Below are positions 47,318 to 47,512 of a DNA stretch of 64,000 bases, in pieces (the stretch's first letter is position 1; every line of letters begins with the position of its first letter). The notes beneath the pieces were generated by a model, which worked only from the letters and a program-made list of their open reading frames with translations, was not told the DNA's origin and searched no databases. The position numbers were made by a program, and so were the translations under genes. Source of the stretch: Hyphomicrobiales bacterium (GTDB taxonomy: Bacteria > Pseudomonadota > Alphaproteobacteria > Rhizobiales > Rhizobiaceae); the NCBI GenBank assembly GCA_900473045.1, contig UCKS01000007.1, forward strand, positions 191,122 through 255,121, given 5' to 3'.

Positions 47318-47512
47318 ACCCAGATATCAATTTCATCACAAGGCTGGTTTCCGGGCTCTGGAGCTGTCCTTGCGGACGATCCCGGCGCCTTCCCGGATTT
47401 CTCCAGTGGCCTTTTGCCGAGGCTTCGCTCCACCACCGTTGCGGGGGCAGCGCCGGATTTCGACCGGCTTCCCAATTCTCCGCCCTTCCCTATAAAGACG
47501 GCACCTTGAGTG
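47318..47512 (-). ncRNA. cobalamin (B12) riboswitch in the leader of the gbcA-like operon
   Basis: On the minus strand the core consensus of the cobalamin riboswitch is present in order. GGGAAGCCGGT and AATCCGGCGCTGCC come first, then GCCCCCGCAACGGT (complement of 47435-47448), then GCCACTGG. The B12 box AGCCCGGAAACCAGCC follows (complement of 47342-47357). Spacing and hairpins match the family (RF00174-like). The only gene downstream is the Rieske oxygenase, starting about 120 bases later. Outer P1 boundaries are approximate. When cobalamin binds, such elements usually switch expression off. Confidence 0.93.

Follow-up and report, generated by a model that had tools for sequence, protein, structure and literature searches.

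Architecture of the locus and of the riboswitch leader

The window analysed in our study is a stretch of 64 kb from a Hyphomicrobiales bacterium of the Rhizobiaceae (contig UCKS01000007.1), and the sole match over an Rfam gathering threshold in it is a cobalamin riboswitch (RF00174) on the minus strand, upstream of a gbcA-like oxygenase gene and a gbcB-like reductase gene (Table 1). The match scores 107.1 bits (gathering threshold 31.5, E-value 7.7e-26) and covers the model from position 1 to 189 of 189. A cobalamin riboswitch on the minus strand at 47318-47512 had been claimed by an earlier sequence-only reading, which held that a covariance search without a significant hit would speak against it; the search has now been run with the significant, full-length result given above, and the claimed span agrees with the match within about 11 nt. 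The same reading had placed a gbcA-like gene about 120 bases downstream and gbcB behind it, and both genes are found there, the measured gap being 123 nt. The window carries the B12 box, the L5 loop and a P13 hairpin with L13 complementary to L5, a complementarity which is also seen in the known kissing-loop B12 riboswitches.

Table 1. Features of the riboswitch operon, listed in the direction of transcription (positions in the 64 kb window)
Feature	Position	Strand	Basis or remark
Direct repeat TGTCGT-N15-TGTCGT, candidate activator site	47555..47581	(-)	half-sites two helical turns apart
-10-like hexamer TTAGAT	47518..47523	(-)	TWWRAT spacing after repeat
Cobalamin riboswitch aptamer	47325..47523	(-)	RF00174
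L5 loop CCCCCGC, kissing-loop partner	47441..47447	(-)	CCCCCGC in 62/62 leaders
B12 box GCCACTGG	47403..47410	(-)	read from sequence
P13 hairpin, stem GGTTGC/GCAGCC, loop GGCGG complementary to L5	47304..47320	(-)	
Candidate anti-Shine-Dalgarno tract TTCCTTTCCT	47248..47257	(-)	can pair with P13 3' flank or Shine-Dalgarno
Shine-Dalgarno AAGGA of gbcA-like gene	47209..47213	(-)	sequence
gbcA-like, Group V Rieske oxygenase, 416 aa	45951..47201	(-)	PF00355 + PF00848; likely ATG 47201
gbcB-like, FAD/NAD + 2Fe-2S reductase	44852..45949	(-)	PF00175, PF00970, PF00111

The ATG of the gbcB-like gene lies one base behind the stop codon of the gbcA-like gene and, judged by this position, the two genes are in the same operon. 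The AGGA of the Shine-Dalgarno sequence was found to be invariant across the 29 leaders of alignment A1. Among the neighbours, a DUF6656 protein (PF20361, 301 bits) is encoded at 47876-48481 on the plus strand, divergent from the riboswitch operon, and in S. meliloti a hypothetical protein occupies the equivalent position. An EptA-like phosphoethanolamine lipid A transferase at 42770-44437 (plus strand) reaches 564.8 bits against an NCBIfam domain cut-off of 500 and stays under the cut-offs of all the MCR models listed.

Upstream of the aptamer, the 27 bp direct repeat TGTCGY-N15-TGTCGY was found at 59 of the 66 riboswitch-bearing loci (the window being counted) and at 13 of the 14 loci without it, the expectation by Markov shuffles being 0.1 in 81. 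In the 54 loci measured, 31-35 nt separate the end of the repeat from the aptamer match, and at the loci lacking the riboswitch its distance to the start codon is 94-238 nt. In 58 of the 72 repeat-bearing loci, whether or not they have the riboswitch, a TWWRAT hexamer follows the repeat by 31 or 32 nt; random windows of 27 nt contain one at a rate of 5%. The sequence-only reading had held that a transcript start downstream of 47318 would also speak against its claim. Indirectly, the fixed spacing of repeat and hexamer points to a start at the 5' edge of the aptamer, probably at about 47511 at the foot of P1, in which case the aptamer would lie inside the gbcA mRNA. As the repeat is found with and without the riboswitch, the latter appears to be situated between promoter and gene and can go while the promoter stays.

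The expression platform was studied in 62 leaders, namely the 61 strong matches and the window, the four weak matches being excluded from the counts of L5, P13 and TCCT. The P13 loop reads GGNGG in all 62. The P13 stem, counted on 29 leaders chosen for spread, has 92.2% of its cells paired and 17 double-change cells; neither value, nor the covariation score, was reached by any of the 500 shuffles, and slid registers pair at most 48.5%. By two other measures the stem does not stand out, since 157 of the 500 shuffles were as high in the number of pairs with double changes and 279 in the number of pair types, and at the two outermost positions of the stem pairing is missing in 7 and 11 of the 29 leaders. 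An alignment fold of 35 post-aptamer leaders gave no consensus helix besides P13.

An intrinsic terminator was considered as the platform and was rejected, since only three of the 62 leaders, the window not among them, have a run of at least five T within the 130 nt preceding the start codon. TCCT, on the other hand, occurs 16-75 nt before the start codon in 49 of the 62 leaders, where 18.7 are expected by shuffling. The scarcity of terminator-like T runs together with this enrichment suggests that B12 binding may hide the Shine-Dalgarno sequence, and control may be exerted at the level of translation. In the free fold of the window, the TTCCTTTCCT tract is paired with P13 and its flank, and once P13 is forced this tract becomes free to meet the Shine-Dalgarno sequence; the computed accessibility of the latter hardly changed (0.28 to 0.26). 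The fold model could score 60 of the 62 leaders, with a drop in accessibility in 15, a rise in 2 and hardly any change in 43. This mixed outcome leaves some room for an aptamer which is transcribed but idle, or for a separate short RNA ending before gbcA. Such readings are nevertheless considered very improbable, as promoter-like elements, aptamer, P13 and start codon follow each other at conserved spacing and T runs are as rare as stated above.

The probable B12-dependent counterpart and its co-occurrence with the riboswitch

B12 riboswitches on B12-independent isozymes, namely metE and class I nrd genes, have long been known. The genome of the window holds a probable B12-dependent counterpart for the oxygenase too, made up of mtgC, mtgD, a RACo-like activator and MttB. 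Contig C112 of this genome encodes mtgC (PF02607+PF02310), a DUF1638 protein, a MetF-like protein, mtgD (PF00809) and the RACo-like activator, the sequence of which contains N. MttB (PF06253) gave four matches in the genome, two of full length and two pieces, one of them at a contig end and the other at a contig start beside mtgC. MetH, MetE and a class Ib ribonucleotide reductase are also encoded, and there is an RF00174 match about 0.1 kb ahead of metE and another 0.8 kb ahead of nrdE (class Ib). In passages of Mausz et al. 2025 (PMC12478193), MtgC and MtgD together with an MttB-family protein are described to demethylate glycine betaine in an aerobic alphaproteobacterium, the module is reported in S. 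meliloti, and MtgC is common to betaine demethylation and methionine synthesis. Against the NCBIfam MtgC model, which was built on other lineages, the mtgC product of our genome scores 213.9 bits and misses the cut-off of 370; the name therefore rests on the gene set and on the work of Mausz et al.

Conservation was followed in a named set, for which a scan of genome contigs gave at least 584 relatives and the best 80 were retained; five of these 80 genomes are metagenome-assembled by title (L062, L063, L072, L090 and L099). RF00174 was found directly upstream of the gbcA-like gene at 65 of the 80 loci (19, 19, 17 and 10 in four batches of 20). The comparison with leaders of gbcA orthologues, which the sequence-only reading had proposed, thus excludes a chance match. 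Of the 15 loci without the riboswitch, L072 was left unscored owing to its leader of 41 nt (its genome has mtgC), which leaves 14 scored.

The mtgC gene was searched in all 80 named genomes, part of the search being run at E 1e-40; where it is present its best match reaches at least 389 bits, and the MetH domain reaches at most about 103. It was present in 61 of the 65 genomes with the riboswitch and in 3 of the 14 without it (Fisher 4.6e-8). The riboswitch-positive genomes without mtgC are exactly L037-L040, and these four have the lowest-scoring aptamers of the set (56-61 bits), with the B12 box missing, while every other aptamer match at the gene reaches at least 77 bits. The search for PF06253 covered 50 of these genomes, the 14 lacking the riboswitch and 36 hand-picked for spread, and found it in 34 of 36 with the riboswitch and in 4 of 14 without. 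In genome G030, to which locus L057 belongs, mtgC (contig C1:996221-996910) has one in-frame TGA and was counted as present.

Traces of decay are also visible in two riboswitch-less leaders, L079 and L087, in which promoter, P13 stem and the two arms of P1 are still present while roughly 100 nt of the core are gone; as read from these remnants, they are natural deletion derivatives of the riboswitch, and both genomes are without mtgC.

A second sample consisted of 247 genomes of at least 95 completeness spread evenly over the family, the own genome included, of which 113 have the oxygenase (E 1e-150) and 178 have mtgC (E 1e-80). Orthologues were taken as matches of at least 660 bits, which gave 107 after dropping the own genome and seven rows below 660 bits (53-58% identity), and 1.9 kb with the leader was taken for each. 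Riboswitch calls were made with a profile of 61 aptamers, the four weak ones being excluded from the profile yet counted as riboswitch-present. Rfam was run on 48 of the 107 leaders (31 called absent, the 9 lowest intact, 3 weak and 5 others), and the calls for the remaining 59 rest on the profile. It confirmed the 9 lowest-scoring intact, 3 weak and 5 other aptamers, and gave no RF00174 at E 0.1 in the 31 leaders called absent.

Among the 75 family genomes with mtgC, the riboswitch is present in 73 and absent in 2, and among the 32 without mtgC it is present in 3 and absent in 29; put the other way, mtgC occurs in 73 of the 76 riboswitch-bearing genomes (Fisher 1.7e-20, which ignores kinship). 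The aptamers follow the same division, as the B12 box [AG]CCACTG is present in 69 and the L5 motif in 71 of the 73 riboswitch-bearing leaders with mtgC, and neither in any of the 3 without it. The named and family tables are not independent of each other because genomes overlap (L040 and G347, for example). An intact riboswitch is therefore found almost only in genomes with the B12-dependent demethylase module, for which mtgC serves as the marker. The genomes with mtgC and without the riboswitch are L082, L095 and L103 in the named set and G285 and G352 in the family (loci L205 and L200), and these five are possibly cases of recent riboswitch loss or mtgC gain.

The association was further examined on the gbcA gene tree, which was used for both the pairs and the Pagel-type tests and holds few trait-change events (10-11 changes of each trait in the family set). 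The named set yields 5 independent pairs, about 4.1 of them concordant and 0 discordant, with a median p of 0.125, which is not significant. For the family, the quick tree gives 7 pairs, of which 5.9 are concordant and none discordant (median p 0.031), and the careful tree 8, with about 6.8 concordant, none discordant and a median p of 0.016. Under a Pagel-type model fitted on the quick tree, dependence of the two traits is favoured (likelihood ratio 46.6, p 1.9e-9), and the rate of riboswitch loss comes to 32 in the absence of mtgC and to 0.10 in its presence. Likelihood tests of this kind exaggerate significance if the signal stems from a small number of events, and for this reason the weight is put on the pairs and on the decayed copies.

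All 14 riboswitch-less named genomes have 2-7 RF00174 matches over the cut-off elsewhere in the genome and a MetH-sized frame with a cobalamin domain, and hence neither B12 riboswitches nor the use of B12 have been lost altogether in these genomes. This bears on a hitchhiking explanation, according to which lineages less reliant on B12 drop mtgC and the riboswitch without a functional tie between them. Losses do cluster in clades, and the pairs tests rest on only five (named, p 0.125) and seven to eight (family) pairs, which speaks for such an explanation; it is improbable all the same in view of the B12 elements retained in those 14 genomes, the lack of any discordant pair, the strong Pagel-type ratio and the decay of the aptamer where mtgC is gone.

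Beyond the family, a plasmid of Phaeobacter gallaeciensis (Rhodobacterales) carries RF00174 (120 bits, L228 2683-2885) ahead of a 59.8% identical homologue, and the TGTCG repeat is not found at that locus. Phaeobacter inhibens is a species in which mtgC is described in a passage of Mausz et al. (PMC12478193). RF00174 was found neither at the loci of a Paracoccus homologue (68.5% identity) and an Agrobacterium plasmid homologue (62.9%) nor at those of two class-level homologues (L115 and L116), which together with the own genome make up the 3 of 114 genomes of the class having the oxygenase at E 1e-130.

Identity of the oxygenase and its probable substrate

The best NCBIfam matches of the two window proteins are GbcA (NF058607, 540.7 bits) and GbcB (NF058606, 376.3 bits), and neither reaches its cut-off (670 and 500, respectively). 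GbcA was accordingly rejected as a firm name, and the label gbcA is used provisionally. The closest solved structures to the oxygenase are 3n0q (566 bits) and the stachydrine N-demethylase Stc2 (3vca, 544 bits), and the identity to Stc2 is 56%. Since Stc2 itself scores 498.3 bits against the GbcA model, the NCBIfam scan cannot name the substrate of the window oxygenase. A Cys-x-x-Cys next to the mononuclear iron is given in a passage of PMC10952381 as a feature of some quaternary-amine Group V Rieske oxygenases; the window protein has it, as do all 188 aligned rows. The residue aligned to Ala223 of Stc2 is Thr in 181 rows, Ser in 6 and Ala in 1.

Orthology with Stc2 is not favoured, given the 56% identity and the finding that S. 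meliloti has a closer homologue of the window gene in another record. The Stc2 copy is in record CP050513 (966 bits to 3vca across all 412 residues), with no RF00174 at its locus, and the closer homologue, 76% identical to the window gene, is in record CP090106 (labelled pSymB) and has RF00174 (100 bits) 114 nt before its start codon. Several neighbours are common to CP090106 and the window, by annotation in the former and partly by eye in the latter. The Paracoccus homologue mentioned above (P. versutus) has a GlxA-family regulator on one side and fdhA with a BCCT transporter on the other, and the Agrobacterium one has fdhA downstream. These neighbourhoods favour betaine demethylation with release of formaldehyde, and the window oxygenase may thus be expected to act on a betaine, glycine betaine being the likeliest.

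The same switch and isozyme logic could apply to some other quaternary amine, such as stachydrine (proline betaine), with an MttB-family paralogue as the counterpart. The window oxygenase matches Stc2 (544 bits) about as well as the GbcA model (541 bits), with the identity given above, and there are up to 5 PF06253 matches per genome, pieces included, from which a paralogue could be drawn. This possibility is regarded as unlikely, because Stc2 is a different gene whose S. meliloti copy has no RF00174 at its locus, Thr replaces Ala223 of Stc2 in nearly all rows, and the Paracoccus homologue has the neighbours named above.

Proposed function and relation to known systems

The explanation we prefer, to which a probability of about 0.78 is assigned, is that the B12 riboswitch lowers the expression of gbcAB and that GbcAB is a B12-independent alternative to MtgBCD for a betaine. 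Adenosylcobalamin is the presumed ligand and repression the presumed sign of control, and mtgC is taken to stand for a working MtgBCD with the same substrate. With sufficient adenosylcobalamin, the leader riboswitch would lower gbcAB expression and MtgBCD would transfer the methyl group of the betaine to folate; under B12 shortage, gbcAB, an O2-dependent and B12-independent N-demethylase, would be released by the switch. A substrate-responsive activator probably binds the upstream repeat, and expression of the operon would then require both the inducer and a low B12 level. In a lineage that loses MtgBCD, the switch would become useless and decay, leaving gbcAB under the promoter alone.

The sequence-only reading had suggested a link between B12 status and methyl-group metabolism. 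Its general part is strengthened by the association with mtgC and is refined here to an isozyme logic in which the riboswitch persists beside mtgC and has mostly decayed or disappeared without it; the part played by betaine as a methyl donor for methionine synthesis is at most indirect, as the methyl group leaves GbcAB as formaldehyde and it is the B12-dependent route that hands it to folate, according to a passage of PMC12478193. An ON switch, or an operon supplying C1 units from formaldehyde for methionine synthesis in place of replacing MtgBCD, would be in line with the fact that in this genome metE likewise stands behind an RF00174 element, and methyl metabolism may shift as a whole at low B12. 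The association observed is with mtgC, however, and we know of no ON-type RF00174 riboswitch; this alternative is thus held to be improbable as well. Counting against the preferred explanation is a protein of the own genome which scores 573.5 bits against the betaine-homocysteine methyltransferase model (cut-off 338) and possibly represents a further B12-independent route; a protein like it is read as MtgE by Mausz et al. in a passage of PMC12478193. The five genomes with mtgC and without the riboswitch, the few events behind the pairs tests, the mixed outcome of the fold model and the GbcA and GbcB scores under their cut-offs also count against it.

The proposed system has the aptamer family, the B12-free target and the B12-dependent counterpart in the genome in common with the metE and class I nrd riboswitches, and differs from them in that the target is a degradative Rieske oxygenase and the counterpart a corrinoid methyltransferase module. 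With GbcAB of Pseudomonas and Chromohalobacter it shares the two-protein make-up and the best NCBIfam matches, whereas the window pair attains only 541 of 670 and 376 of 500 bits, and to our knowledge no B12 riboswitch is known for GbcAB of those genera. Stc2 (3vca) is likewise a Group V Rieske protein with CxxC near the iron site and 56% identity, but its locus was examined and is without RF00174, and the Ala223 position differs. MtgBCD/E, a split cobalamin methyltransferase described in passages of PMC12478193, covers the same first demethylation step and the module is present in the own genome; unlike GbcAB, it needs a corrinoid and passes the methyl group to folate.

A ring-dioxygenase-like ardX and a ferredoxin-like frdX are reportedly among the targets of B12 elements listed by Rodionov and co-workers in J Biol Chem in 2003, and we presume that ardX-frdX may be this gbcAB operon. 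The MtgBCD betaine route was described much later than that listing. A search of open-licence PMC papers for ardX together with B12 gave no match, and the words betaine, dioxygenase, Rieske and ferredoxin occur 0 times in the main text of PMC3766115, as far as that part of the paper goes. B12 control of gbcAB does not appear where PMC12478193 names gbcA (four times) or a riboswitch (once, in the title of a glycine-riboswitch reference). Among the matches listed from open-licence PMC, no tie between a riboswitch-controlled gbcAB and MtgBCD was found in print. What is new here may therefore be the tie of the gbcAB riboswitch to MtgBCD, and the riboswitch target itself may already be catalogued.

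GbcAB is probably a third kind of B12-independent isozyme under a B12 riboswitch, and the first known to us in a catabolic pathway. If this is true, the methionine synthase, the ribonucleotide reductase and the betaine demethylase would all be exchanged at low B12, and the rule that a riboswitch tracks its partner could reveal the missing B12-dependent partners of further orphan targets. Where a riboswitch persists only as long as its B12-dependent partner does, this retention is evidence of function without experiment. The oxygenase route appears to be reserved by B12 in many members of the Rhizobiaceae as well as on at least one plasmid of the Rhodobacterales, which would be the regulatory counterpart to the findings of Mausz et al. 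A passage of PMC12478193 relates that Barra et al. inferred a further betaine-demethylating system in Sinorhizobium, which Mausz et al. attribute to MtgBCD. The riboswitch operon of S. meliloti CP090106 may be another candidate for that system, and added B12 would hide this operon.

Further RF00174 matches were noted in the surroundings of two loci. At L042, a second match (882-1083, minus strand, 102 bits) lies about 1.6 kb from the one at gbcA, on the opposite strand. On a contig of the own genome (L013, C83:27000-46500), two more distant Rieske oxygenase matches of 33 and 36% identity are situated within 10 kb of another RF00174 match.
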